Shown: in pieces, positions 180 through 17,823 of the stretch
Layout of the letters: each line of letters begins with the position of its first letter
How positions within the stretch are numbered: position 1 is the first letter of the stretch
Source of the DNA: Mailhella massiliensis
GTDB taxonomy: Bacteria > Desulfobacterota > Desulfovibrionia > Desulfovibrionales > Desulfovibrionaceae
Reading direction: 5' to 3'
NCBI RefSeq assembly: GCF_900155525.1
Contig: NZ_LT706952.1
Location: forward strand, 1,128,624-1,192,623
Length of the DNA stretch: 64,000 nt
The notes under the pieces: generated by a model
Seen by the model: only the letters and a program-made list of their open reading frames with translations
The model's database searches: none
What the model was told of the DNA's origin: nothing
Translations under genes and position numbers: made by a program

Positions 180-1091
180 TTATGCGCGCCCTTCCCTTTC
201 CGCAAGGAAGGCATCCACGTCTGCGGCAGTGGGAATGCCGTCCCAGCCGTGACCGTTGCGGCAGAGCAGCGTGGAAGTGGCGGAAGCACGACGCGCGGCT
301 TCCAGAACGCCGTAGCCCTGCGCGAGACTCGCGGCCATGGCGCCGTGGAACACGTCGCCCGCGCCCGTGCTGTCGGTGACCGGCACATCGGGGAAGGTGG
401 GCACGCGGCTGATGACGCCGTCAATATTCCACAGCGAGCCTTCCACGCCCTGAGTGGCGGCCACAACGCCCTTGCAGATACGGCCAAGCTCGGTCAGCGC
501 TTCCATGGTATCGTCGATGCCAAGCATCTTCTTCATGCCGAGATCGGCGCAGATGACGTAATCGGCCCTCTTTACGCAGGCAAGGTACCTCGGATCGTCG
601 GAAACGACGTCCACGTCGAGCAGCACCTTGATGCCCCGCTTTTCTGCTTCGTCCATGACGTGGGGCATGACGGGCAGCCAGCGCATGTCGCTCAGAATGA
701 GGGTATCGGAATCCAGCGTATCCACGGGCAGGGATTCGGCTCCGGCGTCCATGGCCGGATCGGTATAGGCGAGAATCTGGCGATCACCCGAGGGGTCCAC
801 CATGATGCAGGCGGAGGAAGTGCGGGAATTGGGGCAGATGACCATGCCGGAAACATCCACACCCTTGCTCGCCAGCAGATCCTTAAGCCACAGGCCCTCG
901 GCATCGTCGCCGACACGGCCCCAGAAGGCAGTCTTCACACCGAGGCGGGAAGCCGCGATGGCCGCGGTGGGCGCAGGGCCGCCGCCGCGCATGGTCAGGC
1001 TGGTCGTGCCCACCTTCTGGGGGCGGCTCATCAGTTCGGATACCTGATAGACTCGATCAAGGAACAGGTTGCCGATGCAGACAATATTCAT
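180..1091 (-). CDS. PfkB-family sugar kinase, probable sulfofructose kinase (YihV-like)
   Basis: This 303-residue ribokinase/PfkB protein has the N-terminal GGGPAPTAA segment and the C-terminal DSTGAGDVFHGA motif, which supplies the catalytic Asp and anion hole. By eye it resembles E. coli YihV, which phosphorylates 6-deoxy-6-sulfofructose at C1. Lys26 (PQK) aligns with YihV Lys27, and Arg137 (SDMRW) aligns with Arg138. Both are sulfonate-binding residues in YihV; the third, Asn109, is Ala here. The gene is last in the minus-strand sulfosugar cluster, 93 bases after the aldolase. The start is an ATG. Another PfkB specificity such as fructose or tagatose phosphates is possible, but the YihV-like residues and the neighbours favour sulfofructose. 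Confidence 0.75.
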   Translation of the reverse strand: MNIVCIGNLFLDRVYQVSELMSRPQKVGTTSLTMRGGGPAPTAAIAASRLGVKTAFWGRVGDDAEGLWLKDLLASKGVDVSGMVICPNSRTSSACIMVDPSGDRQILAYTDPAMDAGAESLPVDTLDSDTLILSDMRWLPVMPHVMDEAEKRGIKVLLDVDVVSDDPRYLACVKRADYVICADLGMKKMLGIDDTMEALTELGRICKGVVAATQGVEGSLWNIDGVISRVPTFPDVPVTDSTGAGDVFHGAMAASLAQGYGVLEAARRASATSTLLCRNGHGWDGIPTAADVDAFLAEREGRA

Positions 1092-1149
1092 ATTCAGGCT
1101 CTCATGGGCAACGAGCGGTGCTCCGCCCGTCTGTGGAGGAAAAAGGACT

Positions 1150-1173
1150 CCCGGCCGGAAGCCTCCGGCCGGG
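1150..1173 (-). terminator. GC-rich hairpin between aldolase and kinase genes
   Basis: CCCGGCCGG and CCGGCCGGG arms lie in the 93-base gap after the aldolase stop. On the minus strand a short T-rich run follows. It may be an attenuator that lowers kinase expression, or simply a processing hairpin. Confidence 0.4.
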
Positions 1174-1184
1174 AAGGAAAAGCT

Positions 1185-2075
1185 TTATTCGCCCTGCAGC
1201 AGATGTTCGGGCAGGGAGTTGCCGCTGACGGTACAGTCGGCCACACGGCCGGCGGAACCGAACAGCTCCATGTAGTGGGCGGCGAGAGCGCGCACGCCTT
1301 CGCGGCCGTCTTCCAGAAGGGCCAGCAGATCGCAGTCGGGTTCCACGGCGAGGCGTTCGCGGATGTGCTTCACGGCGGCGCACTTCAGCGCGGTGTTGAT
1401 GTTGATCTTGCGCAGACCGTTGCGGGTGGCGGTGCGGATGGCGTCTTCGGTCACGCCGGAAGCGCCGTGCAGCACCAGCGGCACGCCGATGGCGCTCAGG
1501 CGGCGCAGCAGATCCTGATCGAGATCCATGGAGCTGGTCTTCATGCCGTGGATGGAGCCGAGGGAAACGGCCAGGAAGTCGACGCCGGTACGTTCGGCGA
1601 ATTCGGCGGCCTGATCGGGATCGGTGTACATGATGTCGGCACGGCTGCCGCCGGGCATGGGCACTTCACCCACTTCACCTTCGGCGCTCGCGCCGTAGTC
1701 GTGGGCCATCTGCACCATTTCCTTCGTCATGCGGATGTTCTCTTCAAAGGACAGGGAAGAGCCGTCGAACATCACGGAAGAAGCGCCGAGACGCAGAGCC
1801 TTGCGGATGAGGCCGAGATCGCGGGCATGGTCGATGTGCAGGGCGAAACGGCCGTTGCTCTGTTCCATGGCGGAGAAGCACAGAGCCATGATGTTCTCCA
1901 TGCCGATGTGCTTGTAGGCCTGGGCGCCCAGAGCGAGAATGGCGGGGGCCTTCATTTCTTCAGCGGCCTTCACCACGCCGCCGAGGGTGGTGTAGTTGTG
2001 CACGTTGAAGTGACCGATGCACCAGTCTTTGGCGGGGTCGAGGGCAAGGAGTTCGTTCATTGTATAAAAGGGCAT
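1185..2075 (-). CDS. Class II (metal-dependent) ketose-bisphosphate aldolase, candidate sulfofructose-1-phosphate aldolase
   Basis: This 296-residue FbaA/GatY/KbaY-family aldolase carries the metal-ligand segments HIDHARD, SLGSIHG and LVLHGASG and the Schiff-base-independent class II layout. Members split a ketose 1-phosphate or bisphosphate into DHAP and an aldehyde using Zn2+. It lies between the mutarotase and the YihV-like kinase, so the likely substrate is 6-deoxy-6-sulfofructose-1-phosphate, giving DHAP and sulfolactaldehyde. Metal-dependent class II enzymes with this activity are known from other bacteria, unlike the class I YihT of E. coli. It differs clearly from the second class II aldolase at 28857. 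Tagatose- or fructose-bisphosphate activity cannot be excluded from sequence. Confidence 0.75.
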   Translation of the reverse strand: MPFYTMNELLALDPAKDWCIGHFNVHNYTTLGGVVKAAEEMKAPAILALGAQAYKHIGMENIMALCFSAMEQSNGRFALHIDHARDLGLIRKALRLGASSVMFDGSSLSFEENIRMTKEMVQMAHDYGASAEGEVGEVPMPGGSRADIMYTDPDQAAEFAERTGVDFLAVSLGSIHGMKTSSMDLDQDLLRRLSAIGVPLVLHGASGVTEDAIRTATRNGLRKININTALKCAAVKHIRERLAVEPDCDLLALLEDGREGVRALAAHYMELFGSAGRVADCTVSGNSLPEHLLQGE

Positions 2076-2159
2076 GGGGAACCTCGCAGAGATGTGAAAA
2101 GGTGGAAGGAATACGACGGGAGGGGCGGGAACATGCCGTGCTTCCGCCCCGGCCCTGCT

Positions 2160-3224
2160 TTACCAGCTGAAACGGTGCATGGTGTGCGTGGTGCGGGTTT
2201 CACCGGCCTTGAGCACAATGGAGGGGAAGGAAGGCTGGTTCGGCGCGTCGGGGAAGAACTGGGTTTCCAGGCACAGGGAGTTGAAGGCCTGATAGACCAC
2301 GCCGTCCTTGCCTTCCCAGTGACGCAGGCTCAGCTTGGAGCCGTTGTAGAACTGAATGCCGGGCAGATCGGTGGACACCGTCATGGTACGGCCGGAAACG
2401 GGATCGCGCAGTTCCGCGGCGAGGGTGAGCCCGGCTTCGGAGGAAGGCGTGCCGTTCAGCACATAGTTCACGTCGATCATGCGGTCGGGCAGGCCGGGCA
2501 GAGCCATCTGATCGCCGATGCGCTTCATGGAGGTGAAGTCGTAGGCGGGGTCCTTGGCCACGGGGCGGATTTCACCGGTGGGGATCATGTTGCTCTGCAC
2601 GGGGGTGTAGGCATCGGCATACAGGCGCAGTTCGTGACCTTCGATGCTGGGAGAATCGTGGCCCGCAAGGTTGTAGTAGTTATGGTTGGCGAGATTGACG
2701 ATGGTGTCCTGCTCCTTGGCGGTGGCGGTGAAGTTCATGGCCACGCCGTTGTCTTCATCGAGGCTGATTTCGGCCACGACGTCGAGTTCGCCGGGGTAGC
2801 CCTGTTCGCCGTCTTCAGAGGTTCTGCGCAGAACGACGCGGGAAACGCCGTCCTTTTCTTCCGCTTCGGACGTCCACACATACTTGTCGAAGCCGCGGAG
2901 ACCGCCGTGCAGATGCTGACCGGTGGGGCCTTCGTTGCAGGGCAGATGATAGGTCTTGCCGTTCAGAGTGAATTCGCCGTTATGGATGCGGTTGGCCACA
3001 CGACCGGCGAGAATGCCGTAGCAGGGATGACCGTAGAGGTACTGGGCGAGATTGTCGAAGCCCAGGATCACGTCGGCGGAACCGGTCTTGCCCGGCACCA
3101 CGAGGCGGCGCATGATGCAGCCGTAATCGAGCACTTCCACTTCCATGCCGTTCTTGTTGGAAAGCACGGTGGCTTTGATATCCTGATTCCAGAATCTGCC
3201 GAAAGGTTTGACGCTGACAGCCAT
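2160..3224 (-). CDS. Aldose 1-epimerase (mutarotase), GalM family
   Basis: The 354-residue protein matches the GalM family over its whole length. It has the HLHGG loop near residue 95, the ANHNYYNL segment with the catalytic His near residue 180, and the C-terminal LETQFFPD motif with the catalytic Glu. It interconverts alpha and beta anomers of free aldoses. In this cluster it would equilibrate the sugar released by the GH31 glycosidase before isomerisation, the role YihR has in sulfoquinovose breakdown. The MAVSVKPF start was chosen because GGAGAA sits just upstream. Confidence 0.85.
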   Translation of the reverse strand: MAVSVKPFGRFWNQDIKATVLSNKNGMEVEVLDYGCIMRRLVVPGKTGSADVILGFDNLAQYLYGHPCYGILAGRVANRIHNGEFTLNGKTYHLPCNEGPTGQHLHGGLRGFDKYVWTSEAEEKDGVSRVVLRRTSEDGEQGYPGELDVVAEISLDEDNGVAMNFTATAKEQDTIVNLANHNYYNLAGHDSPSIEGHELRLYADAYTPVQSNMIPTGEIRPVAKDPAYDFTSMKRIGDQMALPGLPDRMIDVNYVLNGTPSSEAGLTLAAELRDPVSGRTMTVSTDLPGIQFYNGSKLSLRHWEGKDGVVYQAFNSLCLETQFFPDAPNQPSFPSIVLKAGETRTTHTMHRFSW

Positions 3225-3370
3225 GATGATTCTCCACAAAAGAAGGGTAACAGAGAAAAAAAAGGGTCGGCAGGCAACCGGCCTCCCGTCCGCGGGCGCG
3301 GATGCGCCTTTTCATGACGGTTTTGTCCAAACGCCTCACCCGCTGGGGCGCTTGGAGAAAGCCTCATGCA

Positions 3371-3395
3371 GGCCGGGGGACAAAATCCCCCGGCC
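3371..3395. repeat. Perfect intergenic hairpin
   Basis: GGCCGGGGGA and its complement are separated by CAAAA, between the TRAP DctP gene and the mutarotase gene. There is no T-tract on the minus side. It is probably an mRNA-stabilising or processing hairpin that raises the level of the upstream binding-protein message. Confidence 0.45.
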
Positions 3396-3410
3396 GAAAA
3401 ACTCACAAGA

Positions 3411-4466
3411 CTACTTCAGAGCGTCGAAGGAAGCACGACGGTTCTGTTCGAACTTGGAAGCATTGGCGATGGCCGCATCGAGTTCCTTCAGGAATTCAGC
3501 GCCGCCTTCGGTTTCATTCAGATACATTTCACGCAGGGGCTTCACCACTTCGATGAACTGGGCCTTTTCTTCAGCAGTGGGGAAGTAGGTCTGACCGCCG
3601 GCCTTGGCAAAGGCAGCGTAAGCGGGACGTTCCATATCCATCTGCACGCCGTTTTCCACAATACCCATCAGCTTGAAGCCGTCGATGAGGGCATCCTGGA
3701 ATTCCTTGGGCAGGCTCTTGAAGTAGCTGGCGTTCATGAACCAGGCGGAGAACATGAAGTTGTGGCCGTCGAGGGTCATGTACTTGGCCTTTTCATGCAG
3801 ACGCACGGCGGTGAGGTCGGTGATGGAGTTCAGGGTGCCGTCCACCACGCCCTTGCTCAGAGCGTCATACACTTCCATGAAGGGGATGGGGGTGGGGGAA
3901 GCGCCGTTCAGACGAACCTGTTCCTGCTGCACCTTGTTTTCCACGGTACGGAGCTTGAGGCCCTTCAGGTCGGCGGGGCTCTTCACGGGATGCTTGGCGT
4001 TGGCGTAGTTTCTCCAGCCGGCGCTGTTGGAAAGGCTCATCATGAGGAGCTTGCCGTCGGTGTTCTTGTAGATGAGTTCACGCAGCTTGTCTTCGAAGGG
4101 GCCGGAGAGCACGTTCTGAGCCACGGTTTCGGAAGGCATGATGTAGGGAATATCCAGAGCGGCGATGGGAGGATACACCACGGCGATGCCGCCGGCGGTG
4201 GCGGGGTAGATGTGCACCACGCCGGCTTCCAGGGCCTGGAAGCATTCGATGGGATTGCCGCAGAGCTGGGCGCCGGCATAGATGTCGATCTGCAGTTCGC
4301 CGCCGGTACGGTTTTCCACATACTGCTTCAGGAACAGGGTGGAGGCATGCTCGGCGGTTCCTTCATTGGAAAGGAAGTCGAGGTTCAGCACGGTCTTGGC
4401 TTCGGCGGCGCAGGCCAGGCCAAGTACGAGGGACAGGGAGACGACGGACTTCACAAAGCCTTTCAT
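3411..4466 (-). CDS. TRAP transporter periplasmic solute-binding protein DctP
   Basis: This 351-residue protein begins with a Sec signal peptide (MKGFVKSVVSLSLVLGLACA, likely cleaved after AEA) followed by the DctP fold. The conserved LKLRTVEN and PFMEVYDALSKGVVDG segments carry the family's ligand-contact Arg near residue 170. It captures an organic anion in the periplasm and delivers it to DctQM. Sulfonates such as isethionate, taurine and DHPS are imported by TRAP systems in related bacteria. A sulfoquinovose, glyceryl-sulfoquinovose or DHPS ligand is therefore likely from context but not proven. Confidence 0.85.
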   Translation of the reverse strand: MKGFVKSVVSLSLVLGLACAAEAKTVLNLDFLSNEGTAEHASTLFLKQYVENRTGGELQIDIYAGAQLCGNPIECFQALEAGVVHIYPATAGGIAVVYPPIAALDIPYIMPSETVAQNVLSGPFEDKLRELIYKNTDGKLLMMSLSNSAGWRNYANAKHPVKSPADLKGLKLRTVENKVQQEQVRLNGASPTPIPFMEVYDALSKGVVDGTLNSITDLTAVRLHEKAKYMTLDGHNFMFSAWFMNASYFKSLPKEFQDALIDGFKLMGIVENGVQMDMERPAYAAFAKAGGQTYFPTAEEKAQFIEVVKPLREMYLNETEGGAEFLKELDAAIANASKFEQNRRASFDALK

Positions 4467-4542
4467 AGGGATATCCTTTCGTTAAAGGTTTATGTGCCGT
4501 GGACGGCCGCGCTAAGCGGCCGCATCCTACGCGGATTCGGGG

Positions 4543-4571
4543 CTGATCCGGCCCTCAGGGGCCGGATCAGC
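4543..4571. repeat. Hairpin between dctM and dctP
   Basis: CTGATCCGGCCC pairs with GGGCCGGATCAG around a four-to-five-base loop just 3' of the dctM stop. A second smaller inverted repeat, GCGGCCGC-type, lies at 4505-4522. The pair fits differential expression of the binding protein relative to the membrane subunits. Confidence 0.45.
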
Positions 4572-4575
4572 GAAC

Positions 4576-5889
4576 TTACATGAGGCCCCAGGCCTTGGGC
4601 AGGAACAGAACGGTTTCGGGGAAGTAGCTGAAGACGCACAGCAGCGCGGCAAGCACTGCGAAGAAGGGCAGCATTTCCTTGACCAGCTTGTCCAGGCTGA
4701 CGCCGCTGATGCCCTGCGTCACGAAGAGCACCAGGCCCATGGGAGGAGTGATGAGACCGATGGTGAGGTTGATGACCATGACCACGCCGAAGTGGATGGG
4801 GTCGATGCCCACGGCCTCCATGGCGGGAGCGAGGATGGGGCCGAGGATCAGGATGGTGGGACCGGCGTCCATGATGCAGCCGACCAGAAGCAGCGTGATG
4901 TTGACGAGCAGGAACAGCAGGTACGGATCGCTCGTGAGGGCCACCAGGGCGGAACCGAGCATCTGCGGGGTATGGCGCAGGCTCACCACGGAGGCAAACG
5001 CCACGGCCGCACCCACGAGGATGAGGATCTTGGCGGAAGCGATGGCGGAGTTCGCAAAAATGTGAGGAAGCTGAGAGGGCTTGATCTCACGGGTGTAGAA
5101 CACGCCGAGCAGCAGGGCATAGAAGGCCGCGATGGCCGCAGCTTCCGTAGCCGTCATGATGCCGCCGAGGATGCCGCCCATGAGGATGACGGGGGTACCC
5201 AGGGGCAGGATGGCCTTCTTGGCAGCCTGGCCGCGTTCCGCCCAGCTCGCACGGGGCTTGGGATCGGGGAACACGCCGGAACGGGCACGGAAGGCGATGA
5301 CCGACATGAGGCCGCCCGCAATCATGAGGCCGGGAATGATGCCGCCCGCGAACATGGCCGCCACGGAGCAGTTTTCCACGAAGGCGTACATGATCATGAG
5401 GCCGCTCGGCGGAATGATGGGGGCGAGAATACCGGCGGAAGCGATGATGGCCGCGGAGATGCCTTCAGGATACTTCATTCTCTTCATGGCCGGAATGAGC
5501 ATGCCGCCCAGAGCCGAGGCGTCGGCCACGGCGGAACCGGAACCGCCGGAGAGCATGACGGAGGCCAGCACGCACACATGACCGAGACCGCCGCGGAAGT
5601 GCCCGATGAGGGATTCGGCAAAGGTCACGATACGCACGGTCACACCGCCGGCGCTCATGAGTTCGCCGGCAAGAACGAAGAAGGGAAGCGCCATGAGGGC
5701 GAAGCTGTCGACGCCGTTCCACAGACGCTGCATCAGCAGGGGGAAGAAGGCCCACTGGCCGTTCTGAGCAAGGTCGATACCCGGCGCGAGCAGAAGCACA
5801 TAGACTATGGGAAGACCTATGAGCACAAGGCCGAGGAAGTAGACCAGATAAAACATTTTGAGTGCTGCGATCTTAGCAATGATATTCAT
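4576..5889 (-). CDS. TRAP transporter large membrane subunit DctM
   Basis: The 437-residue integral membrane protein has about twelve hydrophobic segments and typical DctM motifs such as SGGSGSAVADA and IIPPSGLMI, and ends with a hydrophobic helix. It forms the cation-coupled permease channel with DctQ. The gene begins 47 bases after dctQ and precedes dctP, a complete TRAP operon inside the sulfosugar cluster. The substrate is inferred only from context. Confidence 0.9.
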   Translation of the reverse strand: MNIIAKIAALKMFYLVYFLGLVLIGLPIVYVLLLAPGIDLAQNGQWAFFPLLMQRLWNGVDSFALMALPFFVLAGELMSAGGVTVRIVTFAESLIGHFRGGLGHVCVLASVMLSGGSGSAVADASALGGMLIPAMKRMKYPEGISAAIIASAGILAPIIPPSGLMIMYAFVENCSVAAMFAGGIIPGLMIAGGLMSVIAFRARSGVFPDPKPRASWAERGQAAKKAILPLGTPVILMGGILGGIMTATEAAAIAAFYALLLGVFYTREIKPSQLPHIFANSAIASAKILILVGAAVAFASVVSLRHTPQMLGSALVALTSDPYLLFLLVNITLLLVGCIMDAGPTILILGPILAPAMEAVGIDPIHFGVVMVINLTIGLITPPMGLVLFVTQGISGVSLDKLVKEMLPFFAVLAALLCVFSYFPETVLFLPKAWGLM

Positions 5890-5936
5890 GAAAAACTCCG
5901 GAAATCATGGATATTTCAGCAGTAACGCCGTCTGGA

Positions 5937-6461
5937 TCAAGCCGCGCGGCTTTCATCGAGTTCCTTCAGCCTGTCCGGGTTGCCGAGGCAGGGAATAAGC
6001 TTGAGGAACCACAGCAGACTGGCAAGAAACGTCATGCAGAAGCTGTAGGGCAACACGATGGAAACAATCCACATGGGCAGCTGCATGGCCATGCTGACGG
6101 CGGAGAAGGAGCGCTGGATATAGAAGTAGGACTGGTACACGCACACCGAAAGCACAACAAGAGCCAGGGCTTCGGTAATGATGGCCAGCACCACGCCTGT
6201 GAAGGTATGACGCATGCGCTGCACAAGAAAGTCCAGAGCCACCAGTTCCCCGCGCTGCTGCGCGTAGGGGAAGAGCAGGAAGGTGATCCACACCATCATG
6301 AAGCGGGCGCTCTCTTCCGTCCAGGTGATGCTGTAACCGAAGCAGTAACGCAGAATAACATTCAGCGTCACCACGGCCAGCATACCCGCCATGAGCACGG
6401 TGCTGATCTTGACGGCTACGCCGTTGATCCGCCTGATCAGATTGTCAAGCATATTCAGCAT
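5937..6461 (-). CDS. TRAP transporter small membrane subunit DctQ
   Basis: The 174-residue protein has four hydrophobic segments and the family signature TWTEESARFMMVW near residue 60. It is the small permease subunit that partners DctM. Its ATG overlaps the GH31 stop codon region by seven bases, so the two are probably translationally coupled. GGAGGAAA lies just upstream of the start. Confidence 0.88.
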   Translation of the reverse strand: MLNMLDNLIRRINGVAVKISTVLMAGMLAVVTLNVILRYCFGYSITWTEESARFMMVWITFLLFPYAQQRGELVALDFLVQRMRHTFTGVVLAIITEALALVVLSVCVYQSYFYIQRSFSAVSMAMQLPMWIVSIVLPYSFCMTFLASLLWFLKLIPCLGNPDRLKELDESRAA

Positions 6462-8638
6462 ATATTTCCTCCGGAAAAAATATATTCATGAAGCTTTTCC
6501 GGTTCCACGACGCTCACATGAGCGGCGGGAACAAGCTTTCCGTTTTCAAAGGCGACTTCGTCGTCGTAGGTGCAGGAATTTTCCGCAGCTTCACCGAATA
6601 CGGTCACAGCTGCAATGCGCTTTCCGTTTTCGATTTCGCCGGTATGGCTCACCACGGGACCGAGCTTGAGCACCGCACCTTCGCGCACGAAGACGGGGAT
6701 GCGGTCAAGCGCGACGGTTTCTTCCACGGTACGGTCGCCGGCAACGGCCTTGCCCGTCCAGAAGTCGTACCAGGTGCCCTTGGGCAGACGATAGCGCACC
6801 TTGCCGCCTTCGCGGACCACGGGCACGACGAGCAGACTGTCGCCCAGCATGTACTGAAGTTCGAAGGGCCACACTTCGGGCTGATCGGGGAAGGAAAGCA
6901 CCATGGAGCGCATGAGAGGCATACCCGTGGCGGCCGCCTGAGCGCTGGCGTCGGACAGATAGGGGATGAGGCGGTAGCGCAGACGCACCCAGCGGCGGCA
7001 GATGTCTTCCGCTTCAGCGCCGTAGGCCCAGGGTTCGCGCGGTCCTATGCCGTGGAAACGCATGTGGGAGCCGAGAGCTCCGGCTTCGGTCCAGCGCACG
7101 AACAGTTCGGGCGTGGGCTGATCGCCGTAGAAGCCGCCGATGTCGGAGGAATAGTAGGGAACGCCGCTCATGCCCCAGGAAAGACCGCCGAGGATGGAAC
7201 CGGCAAGTCCGCCCCAGCTGGACTGGGAGTCGCCCGCCCACTGGATGGGAGCCCGCTGGCTGCCCGCCCAGCCGGAACGGGACCAGCAGAGTGCGTTTTC
7301 GCCATAGTAACGGCGTCCGGCTTCGTAGACGCAGAGGTTGTACAGCAGAGAATACACGTTGTGGATGCGGATGCCGTCGTCGCCGTTGCAGGCGTACATG
7401 TCGGGCAGCACCTGTTCGCCGAAGTCGGCCTTGATGCAGTCCACACCGGCATCAAACAGTTCCTTGTGGCGGCCGCACCAGTATTCCCAGGCTTCGGGAT
7501 TGGTGAAGTCCACAAGGCCGCTGTTGGGCAGCTGGGTCAGGACCTGACCGAAGGGGCCGGGATCAAAGGCGTATTCATAGGCCTTGCCGTCCTTGTCGCG
7601 GAGCAGCCAGCCCTTTTCCGCCATTTCGCCGAAGAGCTTGTTCTTGATGGAGACCAGCGGATATTCCCACACGCAGATCTTGTAGTTCATGGCCTTCAAG
7701 GAATCGCAGAAGGCCTTGGGATCGTCGTAACGGGTGGGGTCCCATTCAAAGGCGAAGCGGGTGTCGGTATCCTGCCAGGCGCGGCCGTCGATGGTGATCA
7801 CGTCGCAGGGCACGTCCATCTCACGCATCTTGGAAGCGGCTTCCAGCGTTTCGGCGGGCACGCGGTAGTAGGCCTTGGAGAGCCAGAGGCCGAGGCTCCA
7901 CACCGGGGCCTTGGCGGCACGGCCGGTGAGGTGCGTGTAGCGGCGCAGTATTTCGGCGGGGGTATCGCCGAAGAGGAAGAACAGATCGAGCACGGCGTCC
8001 TTCACGTCGAGGCAGAGGCTCTGGTTGGCCCACTGCTGATAGCCGACGCCGATGCGCACATAGGCGGGAGTGTTCACGAACACGCCGTAACCTTCGGGAG
8101 ACCACACGAAGGGGCAGTTCTTGTAGCAGACGGAGCTGTTCACGCCGAGGGCGTCTTCATTCCACATGTCCAGCAGCATACCGCGGCGGTTCAGCCCCGC
8201 GTAGTTCTCGCCGCCGCCGTACACGGCCACGCCGAAGGGCAGGCCCAGAGCGGCAAACCAGCCTTCTTCCGTGGCGGCCACGGGAGGCAGGCGGAACTTG
8301 CGCACGAAGTGGCTGTCTTCGGTGACGGGCAGCACGACCTTGCCGTTCTTTTCCAGGCTGTAGGTCAGGGGGGAGCGGGTCAGACGAAGCGCGTATTCAC
8401 CGCTGGAGCAGAGCACATCATCCTGGCTTTCCAGCACATTCAGGGCCAGACGTTCGTCCTTGGCGCATACAATACCGTAATCGTTGACCTCAGCGTCGCC
8501 GAGGCGGACGCGGAAGCAGCCTTCCGCATACACCGTGACCTCAAGCTTTCCGACATCGGTGGAAAAAACAGCCTTGTTCTCGGCAAGAGAAGCCAGGGCC
8601 AGCCCCTTGCATGGGGATAGATTCTCAAATTTCTGCAT
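6455..8638 (-). CDS. GH31 family alpha-glycosidase (YicI-like)
   Basis: This 727-residue cytoplasmic glycoside hydrolase closely follows E. coli YicI. The nucleophile is Asp405 (KADFGEQ) and the probable acid/base is Asp470 (WAGDSQ), with the GGLSWGMSG and SDIGGF segments downstream. There is no signal peptide. It should release a sugar from an alpha-glycoside brought in by the adjacent TRAP system. Sulfoquinovosidases (YihQ) are also GH31, but their Arg-x-x-Trp sulfonate-binding pair is not visible: the aligned stretch reads DTRFAFEW. It may be an alpha-xylosidase or glucosidase, or a divergent sulfoquinovosidase. Family certainty is high; substrate certainty is low. Confidence 0.82.
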   Translation of the reverse strand: MQKFENLSPCKGLALASLAENKAVFSTDVGKLEVTVYAEGCFRVRLGDAEVNDYGIVCAKDERLALNVLESQDDVLCSSGEYALRLTRSPLTYSLEKNGKVVLPVTEDSHFVRKFRLPPVAATEEGWFAALGLPFGVAVYGGGENYAGLNRRGMLLDMWNEDALGVNSSVCYKNCPFVWSPEGYGVFVNTPAYVRIGVGYQQWANQSLCLDVKDAVLDLFFLFGDTPAEILRRYTHLTGRAAKAPVWSLGLWLSKAYYRVPAETLEAASKMREMDVPCDVITIDGRAWQDTDTRFAFEWDPTRYDDPKAFCDSLKAMNYKICVWEYPLVSIKNKLFGEMAEKGWLLRDKDGKAYEYAFDPGPFGQVLTQLPNSGLVDFTNPEAWEYWCGRHKELFDAGVDCIKADFGEQVLPDMYACNGDDGIRIHNVYSLLYNLCVYEAGRRYYGENALCWSRSGWAGSQRAPIQWAGDSQSSWGGLAGSILGGLSWGMSGVPYYSSDIGGFYGDQPTPELFVRWTEAGALGSHMRFHGIGPREPWAYGAEAEDICRRWVRLRYRLIPYLSDASAQAAATGMPLMRSMVLSFPDQPEVWPFELQYMLGDSLLVVPVVREGGKVRYRLPKGTWYDFWTGKAVAGDRTVEETVALDRIPVFVREGAVLKLGPVVSHTGEIENGKRIAAVTVFGEAAENSCTYDDEVAFENGKLVPAAHVSVVEPEKLHEYIFSGGNIC

Positions 8639-8754
8639 AGTGCTCTGCCTTGTTCTGCTATGACTTATGTTGCAAAGAAATTTCTTCGGAAATAGGGAAA
8701 CAGTCGGATACGAAAACGGAGACGAACCGTTACGGCCCGCCTCCGTTCCCTGTA

Positions 8755-10113
8755 TTACGCCTTGGTGAGATCCACCACTTCGAGGCCGACCATTTCGGCT
8801 ATCATTTTGAGCTGTTCGCGGCAGTCGCCGTACACGATGCCGGAATGATGTTCCATACCCTCGGCAATGAGGTTCTTCATGAACTGTTCGGCGGGAATGT
8901 CCATGCGGGCCACGCCGGCGGTGCCGGAGAAGGCCAGAGGACGGCTGATCATTTCACCGCCGCCGATGAGCAGGCGCAGCTTGCCCTTGCCCTGGCTGAT
9001 GCGGGCCAGCGTGAAGCGGCCGGGCTTCAGGCAGAATTCCGAAAGCAGGGGAAGCTTGCGGTTGGAATGAATGGTACCGCGGATGGGGCCTTCGGGATCG
9101 GCCATGTCGATGGGGGCCTGGCCGCAGTGCCAGAACACCACGGTGTCGTCCTTCACGTCCACATCCACAAGGTCGGTATTGAACGCGCCGGAGTTCTGCA
9201 GGCGGGTGAGAAGCAGAGCGGTGAGCACGCCGTAGAGGTCGCCTTCGCAGCCGCAGGGCACGCCGTCTTCATTCATCATGGCCATGGCGCCGCAGGCGGC
9301 CGCGCCGTAGTGGGTGAAGAAGTGGGGCCAGCAGCGCACCGTCATGCCGAGATAGCCCTGTTCGGCGGCCTTGTCGCGCATACGGGCGTAGATCTTGCAG
9401 GTCTTGATGGTGGCGTCGTGGTCGAGTTCGCCGAGGTTCGGGAACTGGGCCGCACGGCGGGCATACGGAGCGTCGGCCACGCTGTCGGGCTGAGCCTTGG
9501 TTTCCTCGATGAAGTCGAGGATGTCGATATGATCCGTGGTCATGCCGAACAGGCGGAACAGATCGTTGGGGTTGAAGTTGCAGGCATCGAATCCGTCGGG
9601 ATGTTCGCCGATGAGCAGGAACTTCTGCCCCTTGAGCTGGTTGAGCACGGAAGCGGCCTGAGCGGCATGGAAGATTTCCTTCGCGGCTTCGGGATCGGAA
9701 GAATCCTTGTGCACATGGACGATGCTCTTGCCGTGGCGGCTCAGGGCATGGGAAGCCAGGTTGACGCCGCAGAAGGAGTTCAGCAGCAGACGGCCGCCGG
9801 TGCGGGCTTCGGACCAGGACCACATGATGACGGGCTTGCCCAGCTTGAGGGCGGCGGCCACGGTGCTTTCCGCGTCGGTGAAGGTCACCTGAATGACCAG
9901 AAGAGCGTCCACGTCGGCGGCTTCAATGGCGGGAAGAGCGGCTTCCAGAGCCGCGGCGTCGTAAAGGATTTCCTTACCGCCGACAAGTTCGGCATCCATA
10001 TCGGCAAGCGTCTTCAGAGCCTGCTCATGCATTTTGGCGGCAAATTCGGTATCAAACGTAGAACGACCCAGAGCGAGCACACCAAGCCTGGGTTTGCGAA
10101 CAGTGTAAGACAT
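8755..10113 (-). CDS. L-fucose/L-arabinose isomerase-like protein, candidate sulfoquinovose isomerase
   Basis: The 452-residue protein has the two-domain sugar isomerase fold: an N-terminal Rossmann-like region and a C-terminal metal site marked by CEGDLYG (Glu and Asp ligands) and EHHSGIVYGD (His ligand). Members interconvert aldoses and ketoses with Mn2+. In this cluster it could turn sulfoquinovose into sulfofructose, replacing the unrelated YihS isomerase of E. coli. A fucose-isomerase-type enzyme has been described in sulfo-EMP2 pathways, as I recall. The start MSYTVRK follows GGAGGGACATA. Ordinary pentose or deoxyhexose isomerase activity is the main alternative. Confidence 0.72.
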   Translation of the reverse strand: MSYTVRKPRLGVLALGRSTFDTEFAAKMHEQALKTLADMDAELVGGKEILYDAAALEAALPAIEAADVDALLVIQVTFTDAESTVAAALKLGKPVIMWSWSEARTGGRLLLNSFCGVNLASHALSRHGKSIVHVHKDSSDPEAAKEIFHAAQAASVLNQLKGQKFLLIGEHPDGFDACNFNPNDLFRLFGMTTDHIDILDFIEETKAQPDSVADAPYARRAAQFPNLGELDHDATIKTCKIYARMRDKAAEQGYLGMTVRCWPHFFTHYGAAACGAMAMMNEDGVPCGCEGDLYGVLTALLLTRLQNSGAFNTDLVDVDVKDDTVVFWHCGQAPIDMADPEGPIRGTIHSNRKLPLLSEFCLKPGRFTLARISQGKGKLRLLIGGGEMISRPLAFSGTAGVARMDIPAEQFMKNLIAEGMEHHSGIVYGDCREQLKMIAEMVGLEVVDLTKA

Positions 10114-10570
10114 TATGTCCCTCCAGATAATCTTGACCTCAAAAGGCGAAACATCGCCCTTTCGACCCTGCCTCAAACAGTGCCGCATGGTGACCGGAAT
10201 GACGTCTTTCAGCGGATGACTCCAACTTCATTCCATTGTTACCATTTATGACGGCACAGTCATATTCTCGTCACAAAGCATATCAAGTTTCAATAATTAA
10301 GCAAACGCAAATACTCTCAACGGAGAGCATTTCACTCTTATTAACAACTAGTTATGTGTATTTTTATCCGTATATATCTTTTTTGTTAAAAAACTGATCT
10401 TTTATTCACATGTTGTACTGCACTATCTGCCCCTCATAAAGCAGTAAAAACAAACCTTGTCGATGCAAAATACGGCTCCATTTTTCTATCACGGGGCCAC
10501 ATTCATACTCTGCAGCGGTTCGTTCCATGACGAGGGGAAGGAAGGGCGGCGTAGCCGCCCTTCGCGTGCC
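10114..10570. promoter_or_regulatory. AT-rich intergenic region upstream of the isomerase-GH31-TRAP operon
   Basis: No gene is visible in these 457 bases. Bases 10240-10440 are strongly AT-rich against the GC-rich background, which fits a promoter for the isomerase-to-kinase operon. No sigma-54 -24/-12 element was found. A hairpin (GAAGGGCGGC pairing with GCCGCCCTTC, 10541-10563) sits at the 3' end of the reductase gene and is probably its terminator. Confidence 0.5.
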
Positions 10571-11422
10571 TTACTTCGTGATCTTGTAGACGGCGCAGGA
10601 GTCTTCCATACCCATGCCGGCTTCGCTGGCCTGGGTGTAGTAGGCATAAGCCTGTTCGATCATCTTGGGTTCATAGCCCCAGTCGCGGGCCATGGCGCAG
10701 CCGAGGCGCAGGTCCTTGGCGGTGAGGTTCACGCCGAAGCGGGCGGCGTAGTCGTTGTCGGCGATCCAGGGGCCGCGCACGTCGAGCTGGAAGCTGCGGG
10801 CGCCGGTATCCTGAAGCAGTTCAATGAGCTTGTGGGGGTCCATGCCGGCCAGAGCGCCGATGCGCATACCTTCGGCCAGAACGGCCAGATTGGCCATGCC
10901 GATGAGGTTGCTCAGCAGCTTCACGGCGCAGGAGGCGTTCACGGTATCCACGTCGCGGGGCTGACCGATCTTGGAAAAGAGGGGCATGAGCTTTTCGATG
11001 GCGGCGCGGTCGCCGCCGATGAACAGGGGTTCTTCGCACTTGGCGGCCATCTGCGGGGTCTTGCCCACGGTGGACTGCACATAGGCGATGCCCTTCTTCT
11101 GGGCTTCGGCGGCCATCTGATTGGCGGTGGAAGGATCAATGGTGCTGAAGTCGATATGGATGGCGCCGGACTTCATTTTGGCATACAGGCCGTCTTCGCC
11201 GAGCACGGTGCCGGTCACATGCTGAGGCATGGCAAGGCAGGTGCAGAGAACGTCGCACACGGCGAGTTCATCGCGGCTGTGGGCGACCACGGCGCCGTCG
11301 GCCACGAATTCTTCAGCACGCTGCACGTTGAGGTCGAAAACGATGACCTTCTCACCGGCGCGCAGAATGTTGCGCGCGATGACGCCGCCCATGTTGCCGA
11401 GACCAATAAAACCAAACTGCAT
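10571..11422 (-). CDS. 3-hydroxyisobutyrate dehydrogenase-family reductase, probable sulfolactaldehyde reductase (YihU-like)
   Basis: The 283-residue NAD(P)-dependent protein starts with the GFIGLGNMG nucleotide-binding loop and has the catalytic Lys in VKLLSN. The substrate loop reads STVGKT instead of the usual VSGG of 3-hydroxyisobutyrate dehydrogenases. That places Lys121 where YihU has Arg123, one of its sulfonate ligands. YihU Asn174 and Ser178 appear as Ser and Gly here. The predicted reaction is sulfolactaldehyde plus NADH to DHPS, the substrate expected for the neighbouring glycyl radical enzyme. A different beta-hydroxyacid substrate remains possible. Confidence 0.72.
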   Translation of the reverse strand: MQFGFIGLGNMGGVIARNILRAGEKVIVFDLNVQRAEEFVADGAVVAHSRDELAVCDVLCTCLAMPQHVTGTVLGEDGLYAKMKSGAIHIDFSTIDPSTANQMAAEAQKKGIAYVQSTVGKTPQMAAKCEEPLFIGGDRAAIEKLMPLFSKIGQPRDVDTVNASCAVKLLSNLIGMANLAVLAEGMRIGALAGMDPHKLIELLQDTGARSFQLDVRGPWIADNDYAARFGVNLTAKDLRLGCAMARDWGYEPKMIEQAYAYYTQASEAGMGMEDSCAVYKITK

Positions 11423-12015
11423 TTTTTACTCCTTTCCTCAGGAAAAAGGCTTGCCGCGCATGGCGCGGTCATGAAGAGGAACCCTTCGCGCGGACAGCCC
11501 GGCAATCGCCGGAACACCCGCGCCTTCCACTCTGCCGGCCCTCGTTTCGTCGCTTCAGCCCCGGCATCCGGCCGCCGCAAAACGCCCGAGGCCTCTTGCC
11601 CACGGAAAGCGGGCGCCCGCAAGGCCGTGCCGGGGTCGCGACGTATGCCGACGGACCTCAAAAGCTGCGTCGTGACGGAGAAACAGGCGGCCCGTAGCCG
11701 CAACGGTCCTCCGCGTCACCTGATCCGAACCTGTCGCCCGAAGGCGAGCGGCCCGGAAAATATCCGTTTCTTCCGAACGTGACTGCGTGATATCTGACGG
11801 TGACCCTGCCAATATCCCCGTTCCGAATTTCCACGTCCAGAGAATTGCCATCAAAAAGGCACAAACAAGCAGGGGGGCCGGCTCAGGCCTGCCCCCCTGC
11901 CGTATCGGTTCTTATTCCGGGTCCGCCCCGTCGCAAAGGGGAGTTCACGACATCGGAGCGGCCGGCCTTCGTACAGGAACGGCGGGAGCCGTGAAAGCTC
12001 CCGCCGTCAGGTCAA
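11423..12015. other. 593-base gap between GRE1 and the reductase
   Basis: I see no convincing gene. Several small overlapping frames look like chance products of high GC. A strong hairpin at 11869-11901 (GCAGGGGGGC pairing with GCCCCCCTGC) followed on the minus strand by a T-rich run is probably the GRE1 terminator. The remaining 440 bases would be a long untranslated leader of the reductase gene and could hold a structured RNA, but none was recognised. Confidence 0.4.
11869..11901 (-). terminator. Probable rho-independent terminator of GRE1
   Basis: A ten-pair GC stem with a mostly G/C loop lies 115 bases after the GRE1 stop and is followed on the minus strand by TTGTTTGTGCCTTTTT. Confidence 0.55.
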
Positions 12016-14490
12016 TTACATACCTTCGTGTTCGGTACGGGCGATGACGTCGTTCTGCAGGTCGCGGGACAGGTCGCAGAAGTAGGCGCTGTAACCGGCG
12101 ATGCGGACCAGCAGGTTGCGGTAGCTCGCGGGGTCCTTCTGCGCGGCTTCCAGCGTCGCACGGTTCACCACGTTGAACTGCAGGTGCCACAGCTTCAGGT
12201 CGCACCAGGTACGGATGATGTCCATGACCTTGCGCGTGCCTTCCTCACCGGCCACCGACTTCGGCGAAAGCTTGATGTTCAGCAGACGGGAGGCGCGGTT
12301 GATCATCCCGTAGTTCTTGGTGTGGTAGTTGGACAGAAGGTCCGCGGTCGGGCCCTTTTCATCCGCGCCCTGAGAGGCGGAGGATCCGTCGGACAGAGCC
12401 GTCCACGCCTTGCGGCCGTTGGGCGTCGCGCAGATCACGTTGCCGAAGGGAACGTGAGAGGTGATCGGCACGTAGCGCACGTCCACATGCACGCCGCGTT
12501 CGCGGGTGCTCTTTTCTGCCTCGACCTGCGTGAAGCGGTCGATGTCCTTCGCGATGCTGTCCGCATACGGATCGTTGTTGCCGTAGCGGGGCGCGGACTG
12601 CAGCATCTTCTGCACGGGTTCGTAGCCCACGAAGTCCGCGTTGATGGCGTCCAGAACTTCCTGCATGGTCAGCTTCTTTTCTTCGAACACCAGCTTCTTG
12701 ATGGCGGCAAGGGAGTCCGTCACCGTCGCGTAGCCCAGGAATTCGAAGTAGGAGAAGTCCACGCCGCCGGGGATCTTTTCGGTATGAAGGTCAAGCGCGT
12801 TTTCCATGCACAGGTTGTGAAGCACGGAGGACAGAGGCGCGGCGAAGTGCTGGGGACGCAGACGGTCCACGATGTGCTGCTGCTGGAAGGCCTTGTGCAG
12901 CAGGTTCATGTGCTGCTTCTTGTACGCTTCGTAGAATTCCTCCCACGTCTTGAAGGAGCACGGATCGCCCGTTTCAAGGCCGATCAGCTCGTCGCCGTAG
13001 TGCATCATGCGGCCGTTGTGCAGCACCATTTCCAGAGCCGCGCCGAAGTTGATGTACACGCAGCCGGAGGTGTAGGTGTCGCGGTTCGGATGACGCGTTT
13101 CCGTGCAGCCGGAAACCGCGTAGTCCAGAGCTTCGTTCACGGGCACGCCCTTCACCGTGTTCAGGAACACCACTTCTTCGTCGTTGATCAGCTTCGGGAA
13201 GCCGGAGCCGTCCTTCACCGTCAGCGCCACTTCATACATGAAGCGTTCGGGAGTGCGGGAATGGATACGCGCGGCAAGGTCGGGGTAGTTCAGAGGGAAT
13301 TCACGCTTGGATTCCAGGAACAGGTAGGAAAGATCGTTGGTCGCGTCTTCGCCGTCGGGAGTCTGGCCGCCGATGGTCACGGCTTCCCAGTGCGCGTAGC
13401 CTTCCTGGAATTCGTTGCCCGTGGGGTTGATGTACAGGTCGATGAACTGAGCCATATCCACCCACATGCATTCCAGAAGTTCGCGGGCCTCTTCACGGGT
13501 CATGCGGCCTTCTTCGATGTCCTTCTTGTAGTAGGGGTACAGGTACTGGTCCATGCGGCCGTTGGAAATGATGGCGCTGGCCTTCTGTTCGATGCGGGAG
13601 AACATCTGTACGAACCACTGGCACTGCACCGCTTCACGGAACGTACGGGCGGGGTACGCGGGCACGCGTTCGCACACTTCGGCGATGGTCAGAAGCTCGG
13701 CCTTGCGCTTGGGATCCGCTTCTTCGGCCGCAAGCCTGCGGGCCAGTTCCACATGGCGGCGGGCCCAGATCATGATGGCGTCGCACACGATGATCATGGC
13801 TTCATAGAAGGGCTTCTTTTCCCACAGGTCCACGGAGTTCGTCAGATCCAGGGCCGCCAGGCGCTCCTTCGCTTCATTCTGGATGTCGATGAAGCCGCGC
13901 TGAATCACCTTGCCGTAGTCCGGCACCCACTGCAGGGCCGAACGGTAGGAGGAGGTTTCCGAAACCACGAACTTGGACTTCAGGCCGCGTTCGTCGTCGT
14001 ACGTCACGCCGCGGATCTCCGCCGGAATGACCTTGTTCAGATGTTCATGGTAGGTCTTGCCTTCCCAGTAGGGGGCGATTTCTTCCATGACGATCTTCTT
14101 GTCGGCATCGGAAATCTGGAAGGGGCTCTTCGCGCGATGGTCCAGATCGCCCAGCACTTCGCGGTAGAAGTCGCCGTCGATTTCAGGATACAGAATGCCG
14201 TAACGGCCGAGCTGGCCCACGCGGCCGGCGAGAAGCTGATCGGGGGTGATGTACACCGTGATCTTTTCGGCCACGTTCTTCAGAGCCTTGGCCCAGCGCA
14301 GGGTCAGAAGCTCGCCTTCCGTGGTCTTCATGGATTCGGTGAAGTACTTGGCGCGTTCCACGTCCACATGGGGAATGGTGAACTGGTTGCGTTCGAGAAT
14401 CTTGTACACGCGCTCACGACCGGCACGATCGACCTTCTTGTTGATGACGCGATCTTCCTGGGGAGAGAGGCAGGCGCAGCACTGGGACAT
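12016..14490 (-). CDS. Glycyl radical enzyme, sulfite-lyase type (isethionate or DHPS C-S lyase), copy 1
   Basis: The 824-residue enzyme has the PFL-like domain and a C-terminal glycyl radical loop (VRIAGYSAY, Gly799). The thiyl residue is Cys462 in SGCTET with Glu464 two residues on, a Cys-x-Glu pair used by C-S, C-N and C-O lyases of this superfamily. The Cys-Thr-Glu form and overall sequence fit IslA/HpsG sulfite-lyases better than glycerol or propanediol dehydratases, which have Cys-Val-Glu. Next to a YihU-like reductase, the likely reaction is DHPS to hydroxyacetone plus sulfite; isethionate is the alternative. The MSQCCAC start follows GGAGGAATCC. A sigma-54 promoter lies upstream. It has no activase of its own and probably uses the one at 18060. 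Confidence 0.82.
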
Positions 14491-14558: not shown

Positions 14559-14574
14559 TGCACGAACCGTGCCA
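14559..14574 (-). promoter_or_regulatory. Sigma-54 (-24/-12) promoter of GRE1
   Basis: On the minus strand it reads TGGCACGGTTCGTGCA, with the invariant GG and GC separated by ten bases as in the RpoN consensus. It lies 69 bases before the GRE1 start and is repeated before the second copy. Confidence 0.85.
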
Positions 14575-15655: not shown

Positions 15656-17044
15656 TCAGTCGAAGGTCACGCCCCGCTTTTCCAGTTCCTTGACCTTGCG
15701 GAAAATGGTGCTTCTGTCCACCTGAAGTTCCCTGGCCACATTGGCGATGTTGCCGTACTTATGCATGGCGGCACGAAGTACCACGGCCTCCATATCCTTC
15801 ATGATTTCCTTATAATTACGACCGTCGAAGGATATGGCGGGCAGGGAATTGTCGTTCTCTGCCCTGGCGGAGAGCGTACTCACGAAGGGCAGATGCGAAG
15901 GCTGTATGATATTCTCGGCGCAGGTGACGGCAAGGCCCTGCACCATATTCTTGAGTTCACGCACGTTGCCCGGCCAGTCGTGATTCTGGATGGCCGCCTC
16001 CGCTTCGGGGGAAAATTCCATGGTGCGCCCGTACTTTCTGCAGTAAAAATCCAGAAAAAAACGGGCCATGGGCAGAATGTCGTCGTGCCGTTCCCGAAGC
16101 GGCGGAATATGCAGAACGGCGATTTTCAGGCGATAATAGAGATCGCTGCGGAACTCGCCTTCGGCCACGGCCTTTTCCAGATCCCTGTTGGTGGCCGCAA
16201 TGACGCGCACGTCCAGCTTCCTCGGCGTCGTCGCTCCCACGCGCAGCACCTCGCCGTCCTGCAGAAAGCGCAGAAGCCGCGTCTGCATGGCGATGGGCAG
16301 TTCTCCTATTTCGTCGAGAAACACCGTACCCGTGGAAGCGGCCTCGATAAGTCCTACCTTGCCGTTCTTGTTCGCGCCGGAAAACGTGCCCCCCACATAG
16401 CCGAACAGCTCCGTTTCGATAAGCTGCGGCGATATGCTGCCGCAGTCCACCTTGATGAAGGGCCGCTCCGCCCTGTCGCTCTCCATATGGATGCGGCGGG
16501 CCAGCACGTCCTTGCCCACGCCCGTCTCACCGAGAATCAGTACGGGAGCGTCCGTCTGGGCGAGCACCCGCACCTTGCCGTGCAGACTCGTCATGGTTGC
16601 GCTCTGCACGATTTCCGGCATACGGCTTTCCTGCTTGGGCGAATTGCTGAGCTTGGAGAACACCTCCAGAAGTTCCTTCTGAAAGGCCACCTTGCCCTGA
16701 AGCTCCTGCAGGCGACTCTCATCGCGGATGAGCGTGACGCAGTAGGAGGCGACGCCGTCACCGTCGAAAATGGGATGCCCTTCCAGCACCAGACGGCGGC
16801 CGTTGGCAAGAGTCTGTACCCGGGTCATGGACTTGCCGGTACGCAGTATCTCGGGGTTCAGAATGACGTCGAACACCCGCCTGCCCACAAACTCCTGAAT
16901 GTTGTGCCCGATCATGCTCGCATGGGGAACGCCGGTAAGCTTTTCGTGCATGGCGTTCAGGAAGAGAACCGTTCCCTGAGCATCGGTCACGCAGACGCCG
17001 TCGCTGAACACGTCCAGAAGCTGATCGAGATATTCTTGAAGCAT
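15656..17044 (-). CDS. Sigma-54-dependent transcriptional activator (PAS-AAA+-Fis)
   Basis: The 462-residue regulator has a PAS sensor at about residues 5-115, a AAA+ domain with Walker A GETGVGKD and Walker B VFLDEIGE, and a C-terminal Fis-type helix-turn-helix (NIANVARELQVDRSTIF). The sigma-54 contact loop reads GTFSGA rather than GAFTGA. It lies between the two GRE copies, each with a sigma-54 promoter, and is the obvious candidate to activate them in response to a sulfonate or an intermediate. The start was placed at MLQEYLDQ because sequence upstream of it does not look like protein. Confidence 0.85.
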   Translation of the reverse strand: MLQEYLDQLLDVFSDGVCVTDAQGTVLFLNAMHEKLTGVPHASMIGHNIQEFVGRRVFDVILNPEILRTGKSMTRVQTLANGRRLVLEGHPIFDGDGVASYCVTLIRDESRLQELQGKVAFQKELLEVFSKLSNSPKQESRMPEIVQSATMTSLHGKVRVLAQTDAPVLILGETGVGKDVLARRIHMESDRAERPFIKVDCGSISPQLIETELFGYVGGTFSGANKNGKVGLIEAASTGTVFLDEIGELPIAMQTRLLRFLQDGEVLRVGATTPRKLDVRVIAATNRDLEKAVAEGEFRSDLYYRLKIAVLHIPPLRERHDDILPMARFFLDFYCRKYGRTMEFSPEAEAAIQNHDWPGNVRELKNMVQGLAVTCAENIIQPSHLPFVSTLSARAENDNSLPAISFDGRNYKEIMKDMEAVVLRAAMHKYGNIANVARELQVDRSTIFRKVKELEKRGVTFD

Positions 17045-17351
17045 ATCGCACACACCGGGTTGTTTTTGCCTTGCTTTTTCTTGTAGCCGAAGCACGCTCC
17101 GATTGCAACGCGGGCCGAGCCAGCCCCGGCGGAGGCGAAAAACGCCGCCTGCCGTCCCGGTCGTGCGGAACACTGTCCCTCCTCGCGGGAAAACAAGTCA
17201 GGACCACCCGTAAAACGGGTGGCTTGACCAGCCCTGTAAGGGCTTGTTACTTACTCGCGCCTTAAGGGCGCCGGCTTGAACTTCTCTAGTCGGCGCCCTG
17301 CCTTTTTTTCAACAGTTCAAGCCCCCATGTACTTTGACTCGTAGCCTGCTC

Positions 17352-17822: not shown

Positions 17823-17823
17823 A

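Follow-up and report, generated by a model that had tools for sequence, protein, structure and literature searches.

Genomic evidence for a predicted single-organism route from sulfoquinovose to sulfite in Mailhella massiliensis

Here, we describe a gene locus near the start of a 64,000-nucleotide stretch of the Mailhella massiliensis genome (hereafter the window; contig NZ_LT706952.1) that probably joins a hybrid sulfo-Embden-Meyerhof-Parnas (sulfo-EMP) pathway for the plant sulfosugar sulfoquinovose to a sulfite-lyase for 2,3-dihydroxypropane-1-sulfonate (DHPS), both within one Mailhella-type sulfite respirer. Ten minus-strand genes between positions 180 and 14490, all with open frames, read in 5′ to 3′ order hpsG1, reductase, isomerase, GH31 glycosidase, the small (Q), large (M) and substrate-binding (P) subunits of a tripartite ATP-independent periplasmic (TRAP) transporter, epimerase, aldolase and kinase; hpsH and a second copy, hpsG2, adjoin this interval from outside on the same strand (18060-21682). 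A preliminary description of the window had placed both halves of sulfoquinovose breakdown, production and cleavage of DHPS, in this one locus. All the genes it named were found with open frames on the minus strand, and phylogeny, synteny and residues speak for its overall proposal, with the qualification that the reductase is not YihU and the glycosidase is not of the YihQ type. The locus is real and conserved in a second Mailhella species, and the genomic case that it would take sulfoquinovose to sulfite within one cell is strong.

At the lower end of the predicted pathway, we take the glycyl radical enzyme (GRE) of the locus to be HpsG. Against the PDB, the hpsG1 product scored 1613 bits with 6lon, which we take to be HpsG of Bilophila wadsworthia, compared with 1225 bits for 5ymr, presumably an isethionate lyase, and 1143 bits for 7kq3, named isethionate sulfite-lyase in the match table. 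The GRE paralogue encoded on contig C16 of the same genome gave the reverse order (7kq3 1518, 5ymr 1374, 6lon 1209 bits). It is 62% identical to the hpsG1 protein, near the 60.6% given for HpsG and IslA of Bilophila (PMC8397734). Due to this opposite order and comparable distance, we assign the locus enzyme to HpsG and the C16 paralogue to IslA, with their activities as predictions; the score order likewise led us to reject an isethionate lyase as the identity of the locus GRE. The catalytic Cys motif (SGCTE) and the radical Gly motif (RIAGYSA) are kept. With 6lon as best match, both motifs in place and an HpsH activase beyond its cut-off nearby, the sulfite-lyase-type GRE of the preliminary description is borne out. 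The two hpsG copies are 98.5% identical in DNA over 2570 aligned positions, with 2 differences among the 824 residues of the proteins. Further along, the window encodes a third GRE, related to PFL2 and glycerol dehydratase (49714-52236, with an activase at 48690-49808), which falls below every curated GRE cut-off; genome G000 (3.5 Mb) holds ten PFL-family GRE matches.

On the sugar side, the best PDB match of the kinase is the sulfofructose kinase YihV (7ag6, 153 bits; runner-up 113). In a tree of 20 sequences, which included eight other E. coli PfkB kinases, it falls inside the YihV clade with a support of 1.000, at 34% identity to E. coli YihV. Its Lys26 and Arg137, to which the preliminary description had pointed, indeed align with YihV Lys27 and Arg138, which we take to form the sulfonate site. 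The Lys is found in all 12 clade members (the locus kinase, its twin in the second Mailhella genome, G009, and 10 others) and the Arg in 11 of them, the exception (L027) having Ala, while none of the eight other E. coli PfkB proteins has Lys or Arg in these columns (five are gapped at the first and one at the second).

The isomerase is predicted to belong with the SftI/SqvD type. Its closest relatives, 52-59% identical, come from Pseudovibrio, Cohaesibacter and Consotaella, and it forms one clade with the Pseudovibrio and Consotaella isomerases (support 1.000), within which the position of the Mailhella pair is weak (0.145). This tree was built from 31 of 58 sequences. A set of 21 loci from pelagic Alphaproteobacteria with near-duplicate gene order was dropped deliberately, and the remaining missing sequences were removed by a 380-residue filter on open reading frames (ORFs). 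A search of the PDB with the isomerase sequence returned no useful match. Ten other loci have an isomerase of at least 40% identity, and these also encode a TRAP large permease (8 loci), YihQ (5), YihV (5), CsqR (4) or a homologue of the GH31 enzyme (2); in one (L025) only the isomerase is visible. More widely, DctM homologues above 150 bits occur in 9 of the 53 other isomerase loci, and none of these 53 loci matches HpsG at more than 200 bits, within locus DNA that is often ended by contig ends. The epimerase has a 50% identical homologue in a Pseudovibrio cluster (L023).

The GH31 enzyme keeps the catalytic Asp405 and Asp470. It forms a clade of its own with proteins from Consotaella (L026), Pelagibius (L032) and genome G069 (L138), at 55-64% identity, which is split from eight YihQ sequences with a support of 1.000; this tree, together with changed residues at the sulfonate site, rules out a YihQ-type sulfoquinovosidase. 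Two arginines, Arg286 and Arg294, are present in all five clade members, including the G009 twin, and in none of the 10 other GH31 proteins compared. Arg286 aligns with YihQ Gln288, and both arginines may contact the sulfonate. A structure prediction made from four sequences reached a mean predicted local distance difference test (pLDDT) of 49.4 and was discarded. The homologue in L026 and L032 shares its locus with CsqR (in L032 also with YihV) and occupies the place that YihQ has in Pseudovibrio loci. Genome G069 (L015 and L138), which is 54% complete, has the same GH31-TRAP module at L138 7166-9484 and 4121-7072 (64% identity for the GH31 enzyme, 44-68% for the TRAP proteins). Two further contigs carry, one each, an SftI-type isomerase and an HpsG-family GRE, and the genome is a possible second case.

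Several observations weigh against a sulfosugar pathway that ends in DHPS cleavage. Two of the genes fall short of curated models, the isomerase of SftI (NF048012, 281 against 700 bits) and the glycosidase of YihQ (234 against 553 bits). The YihQ columns Gln288, Arg301, Trp304 and Tyr508, which we take as the sulfonate-site motif, hold Arg, Asp, Phe and Phe in the GH31 enzyme. Within the YihV clade, the kinase groups with pelagic alphaproteobacterial kinases (0.923) rather than with the E. coli enzyme. The aldolase is no close relative of its class II counterparts in Pseudovibrio-type loci (31-33% identity to those of L023, L024 and L029), in a comparison set without a characterised SqiA. The reductase has Ser at the position of YihU Asn174, and its presence in genomes where the isomerase was not found may mean that its role is older and different. 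At the GRE, the hpsG1 protein passes the curated HpsG model NF048011 (1484 bits, cut-off 1000), yet a pass alone does not prove HpsG, since the model also accepts IslA-like paralogues: in six other genomes it had six matches over its cut-off, IslA-like ones included, and a gene on contig C10 of G009 reached 1499.6 bits while being only 61% identical to the locus HpsG. Finally, gaps of 593 bp between hpsG1 and the reductase and of 382 bp between the reductase and the isomerase, together with sigma-70-like sites, mean that the sugar genes may not be co-transcribed with hpsG1.

Some of these points would also fit an alternative in which the substrate is a different anionic sugar substituted at position 6, uronate-like or otherwise sulfonated, and in which the sugar genes came to lie beside hpsG1 by rearrangement while being functionally separate. 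The glycosidase that is not YihQ-like, the two missed cut-offs, the long gaps and the sigma-70-like sites before the isomerase all suit it, as does the aldolase, whose nearest E. coli relative among those compared is YdjI (39% identity; paired with support 0.931), an octuluronate-1-phosphate aldolase in the E. coli record. We nevertheless consider it unlikely: the kinase sits in the YihV clade with both residues, the isomerase is nested among clusters of which several carry CsqR, YihV, YihU or YihQ, and the junction with hpsG is kept in a second species.

The reductase was where the preliminary description needed revision. It had been called YihU-like, but the tree rules out a YihU orthologue and sets the protein in a separate clade, at 26% identity to E. 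coli YihU; in Mailhella genomes lacking a detected isomerase, it is a partner of hpsG-hpsH. The accompanying claim of a Lys at the sulfonate Arg site stood, as Lys121 aligns with YihU Arg123, which, like Asn174, is taken as a functional residue of YihU. This column holds Lys in all eight members of the reductase clade and in all five clostridial reductases beside an SftI-type isomerase, and Gly in all four of GarR, GlxR, YgbJ and a GarR-like protein. The best PDB match is 9k2j. The outcome that the preliminary description had set against itself was a kinase and a reductase grouping outside YihV and YihU; the kinase groups inside YihV and the reductase outside YihU.

Matches to the reductase (E < 1e-40) are found in 8 of the 19 genomes of the genus searched, the window's included, with only 42-44% identity in G006 and G017. 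Genomes G015 and G016 have the order hpsG-hpsH-reductase, with a reductase 71% identical to that of the window, and the isomerase was not found there. In G008, the reductase opens one contig, followed by another TRAP set, and hpsG-hpsH fill another contig; in G011 it shares a contig with an hpsG fragment in a different arrangement, without hpsH there. Its association with hpsG-hpsH in genomes without a detected isomerase suggests that the reductase is a resident gene of the DHPS locus. Two further details concern these genomes: the hpsG match of G015 (L112, G015:C97 2316-4835) has one internal TGA, by sequencing error or decay, and an amidohydrolase gene near hpsG2 (PF04909, 25088-25936) starts, by eye, much like genes that G016 has near hpsG (L113 2544-3392) and G006 next to its reductase homologue (L116 8848-9780).

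These arrangements also bear on a different division of labor, in which sulfoquinovose is fermented to DHPS and the DHPS excreted, the adjacent HpsG acts, as in Bilophila, on DHPS taken up from outside, the genes are linked for regulation only and cross-feeding persists. The two Mailhella genomes with hpsG-hpsH-reductase in which no isomerase was found speak for it, as does the other TRAP set after the reductase in G008; an ORF near hpsH in G009 begins, by eye, like the binding protein of that set. In addition, hpsG2 with hpsH could alone serve external DHPS. On the other hand, the reductase and sugar genes directly follow an hpsG copy that has a sigma-54-like site of its own, and none of the ten operon genes is of the YihP kind. 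We judge excretion improbable, and cleavage of the DHPS in the cell that makes it remains our preferred reading.

Of the 19 genomes, only that of the window and G009 have the isomerase. Contig C51 of G009 carries the same nine genes from reductase to kinase in the same order after the 3′ end of hpsG, with proteins 93-99% identical. A full-length close hpsG was not found in G009 (best 61%), but the last 24 codons of hpsG end two of its contigs, of which C51 leads to the reductase and C93 to hpsH, as expected if the assembler could not resolve two near-identical hpsG copies. With hpsG ends on both the reductase and the hpsH side, the duplicated layout is probably common to both species. It appears likely that the sugar genes, with an isomerase related to those of marine Alphaproteobacteria, joined a resident hpsG-hpsH-reductase locus, with duplication of hpsG. 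The idea of horizontal gain comes from the isomerase tree only, as the base composition of the sugar genes shows no shift (56-64% guanine plus cytosine (GC) against 60% for the window, with GC at third codon positions, GC3, also like other measured window genes). The TnpA transposase has a GC content of 41% against the same 60%. A search for an hpsH remnant in the 593 bp that separate hpsG1 from the reductase gave only 17-20 bp matches (E 0.011 or worse). The IS200/IS605 transposase and the near-identical gene pair could be taken as signs that the genes are decaying or unexpressed, or that their arrangement is an assembly artefact. This we hold to be very improbable in light of the open frames, the ordinary GC and GC3 of the sugar genes, the 1.27-Mb contig and the same order, with 93-99% identical proteins, in a second metagenome-assembled genome.

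Spacing within the block from isomerase to kinase is at most 171 bp. Three sigma-70-like sites precede the isomerase on the coding strand, among six in the scanned region on both strands against 1.9 expected, and because of them the sugar genes may have a promoter of their own. Sigma-54 (-24/-12) sites were scanned for in the first 26 kb on both strands, without a shuffle control; with up to 2 mismatches to the consensus this gave 15 sites, four of them with 0 or 1 mismatch. The sites before hpsG1 and hpsG2 are given in Table 1 with the other features. A perfect match to the consensus used (22071-22085) lies just ahead of the likely start of a DUF4037 gene (22130-23077) that is divergent from hpsG2. 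Beyond the kinase, outside the window, a second sigma-54 activator is encoded (L017 11838-13286).

Table 1. Genes and promoter-like sites of the Mailhella locus, with positions in the window
Feature	Position	Strand	Basis or remark
hpsG1, glycyl radical DHPS sulfite-lyase (predicted)	12016..14490	-	Start taken at the MSQCC Met; PDB scores, motifs
Beta-hydroxyacid dehydrogenase, predicted sulfolactaldehyde reductase	10571..11422	-	PF03446 and PF14833
FucI/SftI(SqvD)-type isomerase	8755..10188	-	NF048012, 281 bits (cut-off 700); homologue alignment suggests a start near 10113
GH31 glycosidase, non-YihQ clade, predicted to free sulfosugar from a glycoside	6455..8638	-	Catalytic Asp and clade
TRAP small permease DctQ	5937..6461	-	PF04290, 96.1 bits
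TRAP large permease DctM	4576..5889	-	TIGR00786, above cut-off
TRAP substrate-binding protein DctP, predicted sulfosugar import	3411..4466	-	PF03480, 194.7 bits
GalM-type aldose 1-epimerase, predicted sulfoquinovose mutarotase	2160..3239	-	PF01263, 259.9 bits
Class II (metal-dependent) aldolase, predicted sulfofructose-1-phosphate aldolase	1185..2075	-	PF01116, 257.5 bits
PfkB-family kinase, YihV clade, predicted 6-deoxy-6-sulfofructose kinase	180..1091	-	Best PDB match 7ag6
Sigma-54-dependent activator (PAS, AAA+, Fis-type helix-turn-helix)	15656..17173	-	PF00158 and others
IS200/IS605 TnpA transposase, flanked by hpsH and the activator gene	17352..17861	-	NF033573, above cut-off
hpsH, radical SAM activase of HpsG	18060..18974	-	NF048010, 460.8 bits (cut-off 430)
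hpsG2, second DHPS sulfite-lyase gene copy	19151..21625	-	ORF as listed opens at 21682
Sigma-54 (-24/-12) promoter-like site TGGCACGGTTCGTGC	14560..14574	-	70 bp before hpsG1 start; 1 mismatch to consensus
Sigma-54 promoter-like site	21695..21709	-	70 bp before hpsG2 start; same 15 bases as before hpsG1

To place the locus in the physiology of its host, we searched the genome (3.47 Mb, 28 contigs) with profiles of sulfur metabolism. The DsrA model gave 643.5 bits (cut-off 392.85), and a weaker match to the same model (98.2 bits) adjoins dsrA where dsrB would be expected. No convincing aprA was found in the genome (best 114 bits, cut-off 641.75). With dsrA present and no convincing aprA, the organism looks like a sulfite reducer and not a sulfate reducer, which is consistent with the earlier suggestion that sulfite would feed directly into respiration. 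Among other genes of the window, two long flavoenzyme genes stand in tandem (30118-32238 and 32272-34287), the first of which scores best against BaiCD and bilirubin reductase models, far below their cut-offs.

The proposed pathway would begin with import of sulfoquinovose or a sulfoquinovosyl glycoside by the TRAP transporter, release of sulfoquinovose by the GH31 enzyme and equilibration of its anomers by the epimerase. The SftI-type isomerase would then form sulfofructose, the YihV-clade kinase sulfofructose-1-phosphate, and the class II aldolase dihydroxyacetone phosphate (DHAP) and sulfolactaldehyde, which the reductase would convert to DHPS. HpsG, activated by HpsH, would cleave DHPS to hydroxyacetone and sulfite, and dissimilatory sulfite reductase (Dsr) would reduce the sulfite to sulfide, with DHAP oxidation helping to pay for this last step. 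The substrates and the directions of all steps are inferred, as are co-regulation and this contribution of DHAP. By our own count, DHAP gives 4 electrons when oxidised to acetate and CO2, while 2 are needed to reduce sulfolactaldehyde and 6 to reduce sulfite; the shortfall means that the cell must also draw on hydroxyacetone, worth 6 electrons if it likewise ends as acetate and CO2, or on an external donor, for instance H2 or formate. Excretion of hydroxyacetone has been reported for Bilophila (PMC8397734). More tentatively, and with slightly more doubt than belief, we propose that one bacterium breathes its own sugar, sulfoquinovose giving both the donor (DHAP, perhaps hydroxyacetone) and the acceptor (sulfite) without cross-feeding, and that the GH31 enzyme is at the same time a second, YihQ-independent type of sulfoquinovosidase that would use Arg286 and Arg294 and be missed by yihQ-based surveys. 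As the glycosidase and the isomerase score well below both curated cut-offs, the locus would probably escape surveys that rely on YihQ or SftI scores.

The locus would be a new combination of known parts, in which the sulfosugar roles of the GH31 clade, the aldolase and the reductase are predicted. Sulfo-EMP, sulfo-EMP2 and hybrid pathways have been described, with anaerobic completion by a second organism (PMC12890257, PMC9594981, PMC12330013, PMC13219744, PMC13372026, PMC8397734). The predicted order of isomerase, sulfofructose kinase, sulfofructose-1-phosphate aldolase and sulfolactaldehyde reductase is that of the sulfo-EMP and sulfo-EMP2 systems of E. coli (yih), Bacillus urumqiensis (sqv/sqi) and Vibrio mediterranei. 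Like the locus, the hybrids of Proteobacteria combine a YihV-clade kinase with an SftI/SqvD-type isomerase and a class II aldolase (PMC12890257, PMC9594981, PMC13372026), and in V. mediterranei such a hybrid with a class II aldolase has been demonstrated (PMC13372026). The Mailhella locus differs in that its GH31 enzyme is not YihQ, its aldolase and reductase come from other branches, it has no CsqR, and the cell that makes DHPS is predicted to cleave it as well.

On the consumer side, the GRE and activase are, by score, of the same families as HpsGH of B. wadsworthia, where sulfite feeds Dsr (PMC8397734). For Bilophila, other bacteria are described as the source of DHPS, whereas in the Mailhella locus a second hpsG copy leads the sulfosugar genes. 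Homologues of hpsGH and islAB were reported in 75% of 48 Mailhella genomes, and the genus was assigned to the consumer side (PMC13219744). Some genomes combine sulfoglycolysis with hpfGHD, leading to 3-hydroxypropane-1-sulfonate (3-HPS); in Enterocloster, the sulfofructose transaldolase pathway is extended in this way, likewise uniting sulfoglycolysis with a DHPS-consuming GRE in one genome, but that enzyme is a dehydratase with 3-HPS, and not sulfite, as its named product (PMC12330013). In the titles, abstract openings and passages covered by our search of the open-access literature, we found no description of one organism with both halves. Published accounts present the anaerobic breakdown of sulfoquinovose to sulfide as a relay in which DHPS or isethionate passes between organisms (PMC12890257, PMC9594981, PMC12330013, PMC13219744, PMC8397734). 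The relay of Eubacterium rectale and Bilophila (PMC8397734) and the co-culture of E. coli and Desulfovibrio DF1 (cited in PMC12330013) achieve the same overall conversion, but with two organisms passing DHPS. A sulfite respirer holding both halves would short-cut this relay and alter how the source of gut sulfide is read from gene surveys.

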